Origin: Calditrichota bacterium
Lineage (GTDB): Bacteria; Zhuqueibacterota; Zhuqueibacteria; Zhuqueibacterales; Geothermadaptataceae
DNA: 64,000 bases
Assembly: GCA_008501765.1 (NCBI GenBank)
Contig: QQUE01000006.1
Location: 124,001-188,000, forward strand
Direction: 5' to 3'
Shown here: positions 56,146 to 63,495 of the stretch, one piece after another
How the letters are laid out: each line of letters begins with the position of its first letter
Position numbering within the stretch: position 1 is the first letter of the stretch
The notes under the pieces: model-generated
What the model saw: the letters and a program-made list of their open reading frames with translations, nothing else
What the model was told of the DNA's origin: nothing
Databases searched by the model: none
Position numbers and translations under genes: made by a program

Positions 56146-56161
56146 AGTATCATATGATACT
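56146..56161. promoter_or_regulatory. 16-bp perfect palindrome
   Basis: AGTATCATATGATACT, ending at the stop codon of the minus-strand gene. Role unknown; possibly a protein site or simply part of the transcript end. Confidence 0.3.
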
Positions 56162-57428
56162 ATTTCATAAATGTAAGCTTCCTGCTCAACACGATATTTA
56201 TACCTTCAAGCCTGTAGATATAGACACCACTTGCTACCTGGTTACCATTAAAATCCGTGCCTTGCCAGACAACGCTGTGCTGGCCCGCAGCAATGACACC
56301 TGAATGCAGAGTCTGAATGAGTTGGCCGCTCAGATTGTATATGGCCAGCTTCACAGCACCAGCCGTTGGAACTGCATAGGTTATTGTCGTGCTCGGATTG
56401 AATGGGTTGGGGTAATTCTGTGATAAGGCATAATTTTGTGGAATTTCAAGGCCGGCAAGATCATCATTTACTGAAGTTACTAATGAACTCGAGATGATTG
56501 TGCGGTCGCCTGTGATTGGATCGACACGGACCAGGGCTTTCAAACCTTGATCAACGACCAACAGGCTACCATCGGCTTCTACCGCGATCTCGAATAAATC
56601 AGAAAAAGTAGTGCCACTGCCGCTTGCGGCACCTGATATGGTTGTTCGGTCTCCCGTTACCGGGTCAACACGATCCACGGCAAGCCGTAGGAAATCGGTC
56701 ACTACGAGGTTGCCATCGGCCTCAACTGCGATTGCTTGAAGCCCTGTAAAACCAGTCCCGCTACCTGTCGTTGCGTCTGAAATGATGGTTCGATCACCGG
56801 TGACCGGATCCACGCGAACTATTTCACGTTGATGGTTGGCAATTACCAGGTTACCATCGGCCTCAACTGCAATGCTATAAGTCGAACTTAAGGAAACGCC
56901 CGTGCCGGTACCGGCATCGGAAACGATTGTGCGGTCTCCAGTAACAGGGTCGACACGAATTACAGCGTGTAAATCATTATCTACCAGAACCAGGTTACCA
57001 TCAGCTTCTACTGCAATGCCTTCGGGTTCTGACAATCCCGGGCCTGAGCCGGTACTGGCATCTGAGATGATAGTACGGTCGCCGGTAACCGGATCCACCC
57101 TTAACAATGCATTCAGCCCATCATCTACCACAACCAGATTGCCATCGGCCTCGACAGCAACACCAAAAAGGTGTGAAATGGCCGGCCCCGCTCCAGTGTT
57201 AGCATTTGAGATGATTGTGCGGTCGCCAGTGACGGGATCAACACGAACCACCGCATCAATACCGTAATCTGTCACTACTAGACTGCCATCCGCCTCTATT
57301 GCAACACCCCATGGATGATCAAACACAGGCCCGTTACCAACCTGGGCGAAGAGTGATGAAGAAAGAGAAATCCCTAAAAGTAATAACATCATGGATAATG
57401 TTCGGAATTTGGAATGTAACAAAATCAT
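56160..57428 (-). CDS. Secreted six-blade propeller with type IX sorting domain
   Basis: A 422-residue exported protein. Signal peptide (about 1-29, ending LFAQ). The middle has six copies of a 46-48-residue unit with RVDPVTGDRTIIS and IAVEADGNLVV words, with the first half-blade at the N-terminus and the last at the end, as a closed six-blade propeller would have. After about residue 330 comes a linker with LSQNYPNPFNPSTTITY and then GVYIYRL...LSRKLTFMK, the type A sorting domain recognised by the type IX secretion system. The start at 57428 is supported by AAAGG. It is repeat-rich at the DNA level. Confidence 0.88.
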   Translation of the reverse strand: MILLHSKFRTLSMMLLLLGISLSSSLFAQVGNGPVFDHPWGVAIEADGSLVVTDYGIDAVVRVDPVTGDRTIISNANTGAGPAISHLFGVAVEADGNLVVVDDGLNALLRVDPVTGDRTIISDASTGSGPGLSEPEGIAVEADGNLVLVDNDLHAVIRVDPVTGDRTIVSDAGTGTGVSLSSTYSIAVEADGNLVIANHQREIVRVDPVTGDRTIISDATTGSGTGFTGLQAIAVEADGNLVVTDFLRLAVDRVDPVTGDRTTISGAASGSGTTFSDLFEIAVEADGSLLVVDQGLKALVRVDPITGDRTIISSSLVTSVNDDLAGLEIPQNYALSQNYPNPFNPSTTITYAVPTAGAVKLAIYNLSGQLIQTLHSGVIAAGQHSVVWQGTDFNGNQVASGVYIYRLEGINIVLSRKLTFMK

Positions 57429-57947
57429 TAAATAACCTTTCTTTAAATTCATAATAAACTGATTTTTCAATCAAAAATAATTCTCTAATTTTGTAGTGCT
57501 TTTCCTCCTGTTATATTATTTTTAAGAATCCTCGAATTCACAAATGCAAATTGGATATTGATTCTTTATCGTGTAAAAAGTAGCAAAACTGCCGATGAAT
57601 TTCTTGGCGATTCTGCGCAAAAAATTGTCATTTTCGCGCATTAGGCTTGCTATTGAAAAATCCTAACAGGATTTTCAGCCATCGCCGGAATATTTCATCA
57701 ATTCTGATTCACAACCGCGAGTTTTATTCGTATTACACTACTATTGCCATCAAGCGTTCAGAAAAAAATTATATCCCTACCTGAGAGCGGCAAATTAGGG
57801 CTTGATTCAAATGCTAGAGGGGGCTGATGACAATAGTAGTTTTTCACAAGAAATTTCGTGAAGTGTATAATCATCACTATCGATGCTGGACTTAGACCTC
57901 TATCAATGGCTAGAAAAATACACCTAAAAGGTCGGCGAAAACGAGTT
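57429..57947. other. Intergenic region upstream of the propeller gene
   Basis: 519 bases with the shared motif (57606-57641) and a hairpin GAAAAATCCT-AAC-AGGATTTTC (57655-57676) that may end the tyrosinase transcript. No gene is supported. Confidence 0.55.
57606..57641 (-). promoter_or_regulatory. Shared 36-bp motif, copy 1
   Basis: On the minus strand ATGCGCGAAAATGACAA, five bases, TTGCGC and ATCGCC; identical at 31 of 36 positions to the copy at 59056-59091. It is about 180 bases upstream of the propeller gene. The GCGCGAAA...TTTGCGC halves form an inverted repeat. Likely a regulator-binding site. Confidence 0.65.
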
Positions 57948-58889
57948 TTAAATATAGTTATACCCTAAGTTGAGAAAGCTCCAAACTTGGCCATTTGTTT
58001 TTGTAATTATTGGCGGAGGAAGAAGAACTTCGCCCATATTAGGATGCTTGATATTCCCATGCATTCTTTGCCAATTCGCAAAAAGTTTATCTATGAAGCA
58101 GTGATGTAACCAAAAAAGTGGATCAGAAGGAGATGCAGCAGATACCATATCCCCGCCTACAACTCCATGAACAGAATTGTGAAATGGTGCATTTTCAACT
58201 GCCTCGGAAAATTCTATGAATGTTGTTTTTTTTAATAAATTTTCTAAATCTTTCGTTTTTGCTACGCCAGAAAAATTCGGATTTGAGCGCCTCGTCACTC
58301 CCCATTCAGACGTTTTACCTAGTTGTTTTGGAATTGCTCTATCAACAATCCAATCCCAGTATGGAAGAAATACTGCTGAGTTAAAACTTCTTAATCGTGC
58401 TTCAAAATGTTGCAGGTAAGCCCTGTGCCAAGTTAAAAAATTAATCCCTCCATGAGCGCCCCATTTTTGTCCAGCTGGAGTACGCATAGCATCGATGTGG
58501 CATTGGACAATTTGTTGAAAATTTGGAGAAGAATCAGACTCTGGCGCAGCCTTCAAATCCTTGATAGCTTGTTTAAAGTTTTGCCACTCCGTGTCCGTCA
58601 TCTTATTTTGATTTTTGCGACCAACCACTGCTTTCTCATATGAATCGCACTGTGGAGCACTCCCATACCAAGGAGCGCCTGAAAAGAAAATAGCGTCGCC
58701 TGGCTTGAAGGACTCATTAATCCCGCCAAGAGACATATTTTCACGGCAAAAGAAAAAGAAGGTAATACTAGGATCTTTTTCAGCAATTTGTTTTGCTTTT
58801 TCTACAGTGCAATTCGGAGTTTTACGAACTTTGTCGCTCCAATCAGATTTCCCGTACATAGCAACGTTTGGAATTTTTTTCCAATCCAT
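57948..58889 (-). CDS. Tyrosinase-like copper enzyme
   Basis: A 313-residue protein with both type 3 copper sites of tyrosinase: CuA His131 (CHIDAMR), His146 (GAHGG), His155 (FLTWH); CuB His237 and His241 (PFHNSVHG) and His262 or 263 (DPLFWLHH). Such enzymes oxidise phenols to quinones, giving melanin-like products or cross-links. The first 90 residues are an added domain with an unusual FFFFCRENM and a PGDAIFFSGAPWYG stretch; I do not recognise it. No signal peptide is visible, so it may stay in the cytoplasm or use an unknown route. Copper supply fits the CsoR/CopA genes not far away. Confidence 0.9.
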   Translation of the reverse strand: MDWKKIPNVAMYGKSDWSDKVRKTPNCTVEKAKQIAEKDPSITFFFFCRENMSLGGINESFKPGDAIFFSGAPWYGSAPQCDSYEKAVVGRKNQNKMTDTEWQNFKQAIKDLKAAPESDSSPNFQQIVQCHIDAMRTPAGQKWGAHGGINFLTWHRAYLQHFEARLRSFNSAVFLPYWDWIVDRAIPKQLGKTSEWGVTRRSNPNFSGVAKTKDLENLLKKTTFIEFSEAVENAPFHNSVHGVVGGDMVSAASPSDPLFWLHHCFIDKLFANWQRMHGNIKHPNMGEVLLPPPIITKTNGQVWSFLNLGYNYI

Positions 58890-59055
58890 AATTCCACCTT
58901 AATAATTAATAGTGTAAACGCCTACTCTTTATGGGATTTTCGGCTTCCTCCCCGTTTCACATGTAGCAGAATAATCGGCCTGTGAAGACTAACGGAATTG
59001 TTTCCATTTATGTAACTCCCTGAAGAAAATTACAATATAGCAAGGGGGTTATCAT

Positions 59056-59091
59056 GGCGATACCGCGCAAATGTTTGTCATTTTCGCGCAT
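59056..59091 (-). promoter_or_regulatory. Shared 36-bp motif, copy 2
   Basis: Matches copy 1 (57606-57641) at 31 of 36 positions. It is about 170 bases upstream of the tyrosinase start and 79 bases from the end of the hybrid regulator gene. A possible -10-like box (TATATTG, minus strand) lies nearer the gene. Confidence 0.65.
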
Positions 59092-59169
59092 AAAGGGGAT
59101 AAAAATTTAGAAAACTGCTGATAGTAGGAATTTCCGATTAGGATAATTTTCTACAATGGTGGGTTTGTC

Positions 59170-62100
59170 TTAGGCATTTTGGCTCTTTTGGTACTCTGAA
59201 GGCGAACAATCAAACTGCTTTTTAAAACTGCGGGTGAAATTCGCCTGATCGCTAAAGCCAACAGCATAGCAAACTTCAGCAACAGTGCCTGACTTTTTTA
59301 TTAATAAATCAGCAGCGCGCTGTAGACGCATGGAACGGATCATCTGCCCGGCAGGCTGGCCGATGAGGGCGTTGAGTTTGCGGTTCATTTGGGAGACGCT
59401 CATGGCAGCTTGCATTGCCAGGACTTCAACACTGAAGGCTTCATCGGTGAAATGCGTTTCGATGATCTCGATAGCACGTTCCAAAAATATGCGATCCATT
59501 GAGCTGGCCTCAATTTCAGATGGTTTGATGATGGTTGCCGTGCTGAAACGCTGGCGTAAATTTCGTCGCAGCTCAATTAGCATGCGCACACGAATCGTTA
59601 GTTCCTGCTGTTGAAATGGTTTCAGCAGATAGGCATCAGCGCCGGTTTCGAGGCCGGCCAGTTTTTCTTGATCCCGAGCTTTGGCGGTAAGCAGGATCAC
59701 AGGAATATGACTCGTGCGTTCGTCAGTCTTCAGTGTGTGACAAACTTCGTAGCCATCTTTTTTGGGCATCATCACATCGCTAATCACCAGATCGGGAATC
59801 ACCTCGATTGCCCGAGCAATACCGCACTCGCCATCCGCTGCTTCAAGAATGGCGTACTCGTGCTTCAATTGGGCGCGGATATAAGCGCGGACATCATCAT
59901 TGTCCTCAATTATCAGAATAAGTGGAACGTCAGCGCTTTCCTGTTCGTCAACAAAAATTTTATCGCTGGTTTCAGGCTCTCCTGTTCCTTCTTCAGGTAT
60001 GAGTGAAGCTGTCGGTTGAAAGCTGGTTGCTGTTTCGATAATGTGCTCCGGCTGCAGATGGGCTTTGCTTAAGGGGAGACAAATCGTAAAAGTTGTACCC
60101 CGGCCTTCTTCACTGGAAACTGTGATACTCCCGAAATGCAATTCCACCAATTCTTTTACAAGTGCAAGTCCAATTCCGGTACCACCGTGAGCGCGGCGGC
60201 TCGAATTGTCAACCTGATAAAAGCGATCAAAAACGTGGGGAAGTTGATCGGACGGGATACCAACACCACTATCGGTGATGTTAATTTGAGCACAAATTCC
60301 AGATCGCTCGTTACCTGCACCGTTACTGCAGACTTGGCATCCCGGATGGATAATTTCATAAGATTGATCTTTTATATTACGGTCGCTTTTCAGTTTACAC
60401 TCCGTGAGCAACAAAAGAGTTACTCTCACTTCCCCGCCTGTTTTAGTAAATTTAAAGGCATTGGAAAGTATATTCATTATAATTTTCTCTATTTTATCAG
60501 GGTCAAAATATGTATCTGCTTTCACGTGCGAAGGGGCGTCAGTTTTTAAGTCTTGCGATGTGTCTGCTACCTCAAACTGCAAATCAATTCCTTTCTGTTG
60601 GGCCAGGGATTCGAACGACAGAACCAGGCCTTTGAGAAATGGGATTATATCACTGGGGCTGGCCTGCAACCGCATCTCGCCTTGTTCCAATTTCGACAGG
60701 TCGAGCAATTGATTAATAAGTTGCAGCAATCGATGGGCATTGCGGTGAATGAGATTTAAATTCGATTTATTTTCACCGCTCTGTTTTTCAATCATTTTTT
60801 CGGCAGGGCCGAGAATCAATGTGAGCGGGGTGCGAAATTCGTGGGAAATATTAGCAAAGAAATCAGATTTCAGTTTATCGAGCTCTTCCAGTTTGCCCGC
60901 CTTGACGCGTTCTGTTTCTGCCTGCAAGCGTTCAATTTCTATTTGATGTTTGAGTTTACGTCGGTTGAGTTCGTAGCTGCGGATGCCGTACAAAATGGCC
61001 AAAATTATACCGCTGTAAAGCCCAAAACTCCACCAGGTACGATACCAGGGAGGTTGTATTGTGAATGCAAATGCCGACTCCTCACCCGCACGTTGATAAA
61101 TGTTTCTGGCGCGCACATGAAATCGATATTGTCCTTCCGCAAGCTTGCGGTAATTGACCTTGGTTTCGCTCGTCCAATTCGACCACCCATCTTCAAAACC
61201 TTCCATAAAGTATTGAAATTGGTTTGCAGATTCATTGTCAAAATAAGGGGCAGCGAATTCAATCTGTATGGAATTGTCTTTAAAGTCCAGAATTGAGGTA
61301 AAATTAGTGATTTCTGGTTTGGGCAGGTTACCTCCATAAATAACGGAATCTTCGTTAATTGTCACACGGCGAATGAGTGCGGGGTAAATTGCTTTGTAAT
61401 CTTTCTCAATTGCTTCGTCATAACGGATTATTCCGGAAGCGCCACCAAACCAGAACACGCCATTATATTTTTGGTCGATATAAAAATTCCAGATACCGCC
61501 GAAGTTTTTAAATCGCCAGAACGGGGTGGAGTCCCACATGTAGTTGCCATCGATCGCGGGAGTCGCAAAACCGAATTCTGTAGTGCCATTGTGAGAACGA
61601 GCCGCCCACACACGTCCCAATTCATCCGTTTCAAAAATGGCATCGCCAAAATTCCATGTAGTATCTGCAAAAATTTTCCCAAGAGCTGAACTTAGTTTAA
61701 ATGTTCCACTCATTTGATCAAATTGGCGCAATCCTTTATCCGTTGCAAATAAAAGCTCGCCATCATTCGACATTATTTTAGTCCAGCCTTTTGACAGCCC
61801 ATGCTCTTCTTTGAAGCGTTTAATTTTAATTGTTGTGGAATCGTGCCACGAGGAATAGCCCGGTGCAGATACATGTGAACGAATGACAGAGCCGTAGCGT
61901 GTGCTAAACCACAGGGTATCCGGCCCATCTTCGACTATTACTTCCACAAATTCATGAATACCAGGGATTTTACCTGTAAATTCCCATTTACCTGCTCGCA
62001 ACCGCATCAAGCCGACACCGTTGTTAAAGCCGATGTAAATACGATTTGAATCGTATTTTGAACGCGCAAAGCAGACGGGGCTCAATGATTTGTGATGGAA

Positions 62101-63495
62101 AAATAATTTAGCCCGATCATTTTCGATTTGGTAAATCCCTTTATTTGAAACGACGAAAAGAAACTTCCCTGCAGATAATAATTGTCCACACAACGCCTGG
62201 AGCCCTGCAACCGGTTTGAAAACAGCAGAGTTCCATGGTGATAATTCTTGTTCCATAAAGTAAACACCCTCGGCAGACGAAGTGTAAATCCTGTTTTTAT
62301 GCCGGGTGATGGAGGATACTCCGCTTTGCAGTCCCTTCGGAGAAACATGCCGGCTGAGCGGGGATGATAGTTCAATACGCGCGATGCCTTTGTTCAATGC
62401 CAGCCACAATCCCTGTTGACTGTCAGGATAAATATGTGCAATTGAATTATCTGGCAATCCAAGTGCTTTATTTAGAATGAGTCGAAGCGATCCATTTTGG
62501 CTGATAAAAGCAATTCCCCCGTGCCGGGTTCCGATAGCATAGATGCCATCATTCAATGCCGCTCCACAATAAATACTATTCTGTTTCAGGAATGTATCTG
62601 CTTCAGTTTTGAAGATTTGAAAAGAATCGCCATCGTAGATAAACAGGCCATTTTTTGGCGTGCCGACAAGGAGATGTTGAGATGTGTTGTTGGAATTTTC
62701 AATTTGTGTTGGATCGCTGGTTTCTTGTATATAGAGCCGTTTTTGGGAACCATTATCCAAATTTGTCCATGGAAGGACTGCGCGGATGTCGATATCCGAA
62801 AACATCTCCCCGCCGGGCATGCAATGCAGAGAATCAGATTCCATTTTCATGAGCCCGATTCGCATCTCCCGAATATAAAACTCATCTTCGACCACAAATG
62901 CTCTACCGAATCCGGAGTCAGAGCGCCAGAATTCTACCTCTTTGGCATGTGGTGCCCAGCGAAGAATGACTCTTTGCGCGTGAAAATAAACACCTTTTGC
63001 GGTGATTGCCACGCGCCAAAATTTTTCAAATTCACGATCTTGAAGCGGGATTCGTTCCAGAAGCGATGTAAATTGCCAGTTACCCGTGGAATCAGGTGAA
63101 AAATAGCCCAGATCCCGCATTGCTCCCACCCAAATTCGCCCGTTTGCATCGATGGCTAAAGAGCCTCCGAGTAAATTGCCTCCAATGGAATTATGACGCC
63201 AAAAAGCGCCGTCGTATTCTAACATGCCGCCATTATTGGCGATATACATCACACCGCGGTGATCCTGGGCTATGCCCCAATTTTGTTGTCCGCCGCCATA
63301 CTCGACGGCGCTGTATGACTGAATATACGGTAGCCCGGCTTCCTGCCATCGCTCGCCGACAACAGGAAATGAGGCCCGCGTATTTCGGGGTAGCAGCATT
63401 GTACAAAGCACAGAGCCAACGAGAAATTGCCATGATATCCATAAAATTTGCTTCAATGATTTTTCCCAAGAATTTGCGGTGTTGCCTGTTATCAA
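59170..63495 (-). CDS. Hybrid two-component regulator with AraC output (HTCS)
   Basis: A 1441-residue all-in-one regulator. N-terminal signal (about 10-40), about 700 residues of beta-propeller (Reg_prop-like repeats), a Y_Y_Y domain (about 720-800), transmembrane helix (about 812-835), histidine kinase dimerisation box SHEFRTPLT (His near 884), ATPase domain (with GTGIGLALVKE), a receiver domain with DVMMPKKDGYEV (Asp near 1240) and a C-terminal AraC DNA-binding domain (about 1340-1441). It senses an extracellular signal and binds DNA itself. The gene lies just upstream of the tyrosinase and propeller genes on the same strand. The start is TTG 63495 without a strong ribosome site. Confidence 0.95.
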   Translation of the reverse strand: MITGNTANSWEKSLKQILWISWQFLVGSVLCTMLLPRNTRASFPVVGERWQEAGLPYIQSYSAVEYGGGQQNWGIAQDHRGVMYIANNGGMLEYDGAFWRHNSIGGNLLGGSLAIDANGRIWVGAMRDLGYFSPDSTGNWQFTSLLERIPLQDREFEKFWRVAITAKGVYFHAQRVILRWAPHAKEVEFWRSDSGFGRAFVVEDEFYIREMRIGLMKMESDSLHCMPGGEMFSDIDIRAVLPWTNLDNGSQKRLYIQETSDPTQIENSNNTSQHLLVGTPKNGLFIYDGDSFQIFKTEADTFLKQNSIYCGAALNDGIYAIGTRHGGIAFISQNGSLRLILNKALGLPDNSIAHIYPDSQQGLWLALNKGIARIELSSPLSRHVSPKGLQSGVSSITRHKNRIYTSSAEGVYFMEQELSPWNSAVFKPVAGLQALCGQLLSAGKFLFVVSNKGIYQIENDRAKLFFHHKSLSPVCFARSKYDSNRIYIGFNNGVGLMRLRAGKWEFTGKIPGIHEFVEVIVEDGPDTLWFSTRYGSVIRSHVSAPGYSSWHDSTTIKIKRFKEEHGLSKGWTKIMSNDGELLFATDKGLRQFDQMSGTFKLSSALGKIFADTTWNFGDAIFETDELGRVWAARSHNGTTEFGFATPAIDGNYMWDSTPFWRFKNFGGIWNFYIDQKYNGVFWFGGASGIIRYDEAIEKDYKAIYPALIRRVTINEDSVIYGGNLPKPEITNFTSILDFKDNSIQIEFAAPYFDNESANQFQYFMEGFEDGWSNWTSETKVNYRKLAEGQYRFHVRARNIYQRAGEESAFAFTIQPPWYRTWWSFGLYSGIILAILYGIRSYELNRRKLKHQIEIERLQAETERVKAGKLEELDKLKSDFFANISHEFRTPLTLILGPAEKMIEKQSGENKSNLNLIHRNAHRLLQLINQLLDLSKLEQGEMRLQASPSDIIPFLKGLVLSFESLAQQKGIDLQFEVADTSQDLKTDAPSHVKADTYFDPDKIEKIIMNILSNAFKFTKTGGEVRVTLLLLTECKLKSDRNIKDQSYEIIHPGCQVCSNGAGNERSGICAQINITDSGVGIPSDQLPHVFDRFYQVDNSSRRAHGGTGIGLALVKELVELHFGSITVSSEEGRGTTFTICLPLSKAHLQPEHIIETATSFQPTASLIPEEGTGEPETSDKIFVDEQESADVPLILIIEDNDDVRAYIRAQLKHEYAILEAADGECGIARAIEVIPDLVISDVMMPKKDGYEVCHTLKTDERTSHIPVILLTAKARDQEKLAGLETGADAYLLKPFQQQELTIRVRMLIELRRNLRQRFSTATIIKPSEIEASSMDRIFLERAIEIIETHFTDEAFSVEVLAMQAAMSVSQMNRKLNALIGQPAGQMIRSMRLQRAADLLIKKSGTVAEVCYAVGFSDQANFTRSFKKQFDCSPSEYQKSQNA

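Follow-up and report, generated by a model that had tools for sequence, protein, structure and literature searches.

The window, a 64,000-nucleotide stretch of the 5.9-Mb genome of a Calditrichota bacterium (genome G000, whose features are given here in window positions), contains a block of three minus-strand genes encoding a hybrid two-component system (HTCS, a sensor kinase with an AraC-type domain), a tyrosinase and an NHL-type propeller protein. Two copies of a 36-bp motif lie within the block, one 79 nt beyond the HTCS stop codon and ahead of the tyrosinase gene, and the other ahead of the propeller gene. The coordinates of these features and of the putative promoter and leader elements are shown in Table 1.

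Table 1. Features of the HTCS-tyrosinase-propeller block and its surroundings (window positions).
Feature	Position	Strand	Remarks
HTCS-tyrosinase-propeller block	56160-63495	minus	missing between mnmD and rseP in same-genus G001
HTCS, proposed regulator	59170-63495	minus	Pfam Reg_prop, Y_Y_Y, HisKA, HATPase_c, receiver, AraC-type HTH_18
36-bp operator copy 1 (predicted)	59055-59090	minus	TGCGCGAAAATGACAAACATTTGCGCGGTATCGCCA; tandem direct repeat, 21-bp phase
-10-like element TTGCTATATT after copy 1	59034-59043	minus	inferred promoter, 10 nt from profile end
16-codon leader ORF METIPLVFTGRLFCYM	58957-59007	minus	Shine-Dalgarno-like CAGGGAG; between operator and tyrosinase
Rfam RF02914 DUF805b cis-reg RNA	58919-58953	minus	42 bits vs gathering 35.6
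Tyrosinase (type-3 copper)	57948-58889	minus	CuA and CuB histidine motifs present
36-bp operator copy 2 (predicted)	57605-57640	minus	TGCGCGAAAATGACAATTTTTTGCGCAGAATCGCCA; ahead of propeller
-10-like element TTTTGCTACTTT after copy 2	57577-57588	minus	inferred promoter, 17 nt from profile end
NHL-type propeller	56160-57428	minus	Sec-like signal, T9SS type A sorting tail

Genes of the block

The HTCS carries its sensor, HisKA-HATPase, receiver and AraC-type HTH in a single polypeptide, with all Pfam matches above cut-off, and its translation reads SHEFRTP, DLVISDVMMP and SHIP, supplying the phosphorylatable histidine and aspartate. The SHIP sequence, located here in the receiver, has been described for HTCS receivers (PMC11253607).

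The tyrosinase matches PF00264 with 117 bits (cut-off 22.6) and is predicted to be a phenol oxidase. Its N-terminal extension of about 90 residues has no Pfam match; residues 1-90 weakly resemble a family 2 cellulose-binding domain (E 0.09), which we do not claim, and no signal peptide was apparent on inspection of the N-terminus. A genome-collection search with the protein returned only a 32-residue Apilactobacillus match that we judged irrelevant, and a single-sequence AlphaFold model (pLDDT 34) was set aside. Within the tyrosinase leader, the DUF805b RNA lies 29 nt ahead of the start codon. No such RNA was found at the four related loci with the operator (L011, L012, L013 and L015), and the element could possibly provide a second layer of control for the tyrosinase, without counterpart at the propeller. 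The 16-codon ORF is possibly a leader peptide or a remnant. Our literature search found nothing on a tyrosinase under an HTCS, or on the function of DUF805b.

For the propeller gene ATG 57428 is the preferred start, although the frame is open to TTG 57470. The C-terminal sorting domain matches TIGR04183 with 34.5 bits (cut-off 23), and PF18962 with 26.4 bits, just below the cut-off of 27. The genome itself encodes a T9SS (SprA_N at C8:600823), and the propeller is predicted to be exported as its cargo.

The 36-bp motif and its repeat architecture

Two minus-strand copies of the motif with 31 of 36 positions identical had been described in the initial annotation, and both are confirmed in the sequence, with an identity of 34/40 across the extended repeat. 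Its spacings of ~170 nt to the tyrosinase and ~180 nt to the propeller are close to the distances that we measured to the likely starts, which are 165 nt (ATG 58889) and 176 nt (ATG 57428), respectively. Matches expected by chance in the window number 0.00, and none was seen in any shuffled window. Across the 5.9-Mb genome there are exactly two copies with three or fewer mismatches, both in the window, compared to zero for a reversed-pattern control; the motif is thus neither present in many random copies nor associated solely with unrelated genes. A 41-position profile derived from the seven sites described below scores the window copies at 50.6 and 50.4 bits, whereas nothing else in the genome scores above 16.8 bits. 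More distant sites in this genome were considered and rejected, since profile matches of 17 bits or less are at chance level.

The initial annotation had overlooked that each copy consists of a tandem direct repeat whose period is 21 bp (TGCGC..AAATGACAA / TGCGC..ATCGCCA). The half-sites read TGCGC(G/A)AAAATGACAA and, 21 bp on, TGCGC(N)NNATCGCCA, a spacing of two helical turns. Direct repeats about 21 bp apart centre to centre, and near the target genes, are the form expected of an HTCS operator.

A TTTTGCTATnTT-like -10 element is found 3' of the motif, and at six of the seven sites its TAT (TAC at the propeller) is 17-18 nt from the end of the profile. The exception is the tyrosinase leader, in which the -10-like element is 10 nt from the profile end, 8 nt closer than elsewhere, and the geometry of the tyrosinase promoter is uncertain for this reason. 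A 17-bp spacer would put the -35 hexamer in contact with the proximal half-site, as is usual for activators of the AraC type. A generic sigma-70 scan did not single out the two proposed promoters, and a sigma-54 promoter after the motif was dismissed on inspection, because the GG-N10-GC spacing misfits.

Distribution, cargo and the 21-bp repeat in related HTCS loci

A search of 63 genomes of the class with the DNA-binding domain identified five loci at 76-100% identity (the window, G034 C3, G028 C40, G019 C38 and G028 C133), and an independent motif search recovered exactly these five, with no further locus in 82 genomes of the phylum; these counts are not independent of each other, because the loci are few (five HTCSs from four genomes and two families) and partly homologous. 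The full motif is present in the class genomes at seven sites in the five loci, six of them found by pattern and a degenerate seventh (G028 C40) by weight matrix and profile. All seven are on the HTCS strand, either right behind the HTCS stop codon or ahead of the next gene of the local operon, and the order of HTCS, site, gene, site, gene in G028 C40 is the same as in the window. Every HTCS with a DNA-binding domain of 68% identity or less is without the motif. We also note a partial operator copy of 22 bits in G028 C33 (L141, 1625-1648, minus strand), directly after an apparently decayed T9SS sorting tail, which is perhaps a remnant of another cassette.

Among the five HTCSs with the motif the sensors are 45-49% identical, the receivers 78-83% and the DNA-binding domains 76-83%. 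Their second recognition helix reads GFSDQANFT(R)SFKKQF, whereas that of the TGTAAA group reads NNLTTFNRSFKKQF; the first recognition helix and the TGCG core are common to both. This points to the second helix as the one that would recognise the operator's variable half.

The genes behind the operator vary. In G019 the cargo is an NHL propeller with a T9SS tail, to which the window propeller is 68% identical, and in G034 it is a DUF7948/HYR T9SS protein. In G028 the C40 locus encodes a DUF285 T9SS protein and a laminin-G/propeller protein, and the C133 locus a lipoprotein-like ORF, an unknown ORF and a tyrosinase. The tyrosinase and propeller are found as a pair only once and are not conserved as such, one relative having the propeller, another a tyrosinase and others neither. 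A search with PF00264 identified tyrosinases in just two of the 63 class genomes, and since both are behind this operator, the link to the tyrosinase is more than coincidence, albeit the two proteins are only 36% identical across 105 residues. The G028 tyrosinase gene is split between the right end of C133 (L013) and the left end of C144 (L014), where the junction is TG...CA with CACAAC to either side. On C144 are genes for phage proteins (tail tape measure, major head, protease, portal and methyltransferase), and a transposing prophage has apparently inserted into this gene.

Comparison with same-genus G001 is informative about the history of the block. In the window genome 8.3 kb containing the propeller, tyrosinase and HTCS genes separate mnmD and rseP (names that we take from the protein sequences rather than from annotation), whereas in G001 these two genes are neighbours, with 469 nt between the aligned segments. 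Both flanks are collinear, so the three genes were gained or lost as a unit. The block does not have the composition of a polysaccharide utilisation locus (SusC/SusD and carbohydrate-active enzymes), in that it holds only a tyrosinase and a propeller as cargo.

More distant HTCS paralogs have different 21-bp-phased repeats behind their stop codons, including TGCGCGAAAATGTAAAACTTTTGCGTGAAAGTGTAAA in G024 and G034, the near-identical TGCGCAAAAATGTAAAACTTTTGCGTGGAAGTGTAGA in G019, and TGCGCGATTTAGTCAAACCTTTGCGCGATATGTTCAAG in G002. The G024, G019 and G034 loci (L057, L058 and L059) represent a second HTCS clade with the TGCGCGAAAATGTAAAACTTTTGCGTGAAAGTGTAAA operator (near-identical in G019), and there the variant operator precedes large proteins beginning with a EQDSLALVALYNATDGPNWTNNTNW-type repeat domain. 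The window genome has two further HTCS genes, at C8:373719 and C8:967024 (L069 and L070). Each is followed, immediately beyond its stop codon, by a 21-bp-phased repeat of its own, and downstream of both are proteins with T9SS-like tails.

Downstream of the stop codons of 42 HTCS genes, 21 bp is the outstanding lag among those of 10-45 (z about 8). The more alike two DNA-binding domains are, the more alike are their operators (Mantel r 0.78 with n=22 and 0/5000 permutations, and r 0.64 when the pairs are restricted to those below 75% identity), although in the lag and Mantel tests alike the best repeat per locus was chosen and related loci share ancestry. Of 40 HTCS genes, 14 are followed by a repeat matching at 12 or more of 17 positions, as opposed to 16 of the 268 control ORFs taken from those loci (Fisher p 1.4e-6), the p-values being indicative because HTCS loci are not independent samples. 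About two thirds of the surveyed HTCS genes have no strong repeat within 300 nt.

Regulatory model and comparison with known systems

The best explanation of the motif is that it is a genuine HTCS operator to which the adjacent HTCS is predicted to bind, and we put the probability of this at roughly 0.88. That the neighbouring hybrid sensor kinase with its AraC domain is the cognate regulator, as had been proposed from the window alone, is almost certainly correct, judging by the clade co-occurrence and the agreement with the published form of HTCS operators. In the mechanism that we envisage, an extracellular ligand would be sensed by the propeller/Y_Y_Y domain of the HTCS and trigger histidine-to-aspartate phosphotransfer within the single protein, upon which the AraC-type domain would bind, presumably as a dimer, to the two direct half-sites 21 bp apart. 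RNA polymerase would then be recruited to a promoter whose -10-like element is TTTTGCTATnTT and whose -35 region would abut the promoter-proximal half-site. One HTCS could in this manner switch on two short transcripts, for the tyrosinase and for the T9SS-exported propeller, from a self-contained 7-kb cassette. Positive control, which we favor, is the usual HTCS mode. Co-induction of the two genes is likely, and the earlier suggestion that a common signal induces them gains support as regards co-regulation, because they share a site and are present in one inserted block; a phenolic inducer is unsupported.

The repeats could alternatively be remnants of an intergenic duplication, arising by gene duplication or cassette assembly and unbound by the HTCS, and the presence of both copies within one small block and of the degraded partial copy beside a decayed T9SS tail in G028 C33 would fit such an origin. 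We regard this as very improbable, however, since the similarity between the window copies ends at the motif and the flanking bases differ, the motif is kept across two families ahead of non-homologous genes, the sites co-vary with the DNA-binding domain, and drift would not preserve just 36 bp at a fixed 21-bp phase. We give equally little credence to the motif being bound by some other regulator, or being an RNA or terminator element, with the proximity of the HTCS incidental. Although for a minority of AraC-like motifs the binding protein is a stand-alone AraC protein, and the window genome does encode further AraC-type DNA-binding domains, these are at most 44% identical to that of the HTCS, the co-occurrence of the motif with one HTCS clade is perfect in 82 genomes, and an Rfam search gave no match at the motif.

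It is also conceivable that the HTCS binds but mainly represses, or that it controls one gene only, without co-induction; this is unlikely, albeit less so than either of the preceding explanations. Repression has been reported for some HTCSs of Bacteroides (PMC11253607), the geometry of the two promoters is not the same, and the tyrosinase leader has the extra DUF805b element. Placement of the operator beside the -35 position nonetheless suits activation, and the receiver SHIP is typical of the common phosphorylation-activated HTCSs (PMC11253607).

With the motif read as an operator of the adjacent HTCS, the analysis provides a precise HTCS operator prediction for a little-studied phylum, and would put a rare bacterial tyrosinase under the control of an environmental sensor. 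Local regulons in this class should be predictable from sequence, given that the operator is confined to the cassette and that other HTCS genes of the class follow the 21-bp rule as well. A tentative extension, which we consider possible and on balance doubtful, is that this HTCS clade and its private operator constitute a mobile module that has repeatedly been joined to different surface-exported proteins outside of glycan use, with a tyrosinase in two lineages, and through which a phenol-oxidising or cross-linking response at the surface could be induced.

The pairing had been considered unknown among described systems, a view that is weakened by the cyanobacterial scytonemin cluster, where a tyrosinase, TyrP, and the exported ScyD-F are adjacent to a probably regulatory two-component system (PMC2726228). 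This is the nearest described analogue, albeit in gene content only (tyrosinase, exported proteins, two-component system), as scyA-C and aromatic biosynthesis genes are lacking here and the HTCS is fused into a single protein. ScyF is an NHL protein in the NCBIfam description, although the propeller cannot be assigned to ScyE/ScyF, scoring 37 and 31 bits against cut-offs of 80 and 350. The window tyrosinase shares the type-3 copper domain and both copper-site histidine motifs with Streptomyces MelC2 and the tyrosinase-hemocyanin superfamily, but scores 120 bits against the 450-bit MelC2 cut-off, has the additional N-terminal region of ~90 residues, and has no MelC1 partner visible beside it.

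The closest parallels in regulation are with the HTCS regulons of Bacteroides, whose operators are direct repeats averaging 21 bp that correlate with the phylogeny and clusters of the DNA-binding domains (Ravcheev et al. 2013, PMC3878776). Both systems have a sensor kinase and response regulator with an AraC domain in one protein, a local regulon, operators of ~21-bp direct repeats, and motif similarity that follows DNA-binding-domain phylogeny. Unlike the Bacteroides regulons, the window cassette is without SusC/SusD or glycoside hydrolases, its targets being a tyrosinase and a T9SS-tailed propeller, and its host is outside the genomes in that study. The Bacteroides rule of 21-bp direct repeats, private to each regulator, is thus extended to HTCSs whose cargo is not for glycan degradation; the mechanism is one already known, and it is the cargo that is unusual.
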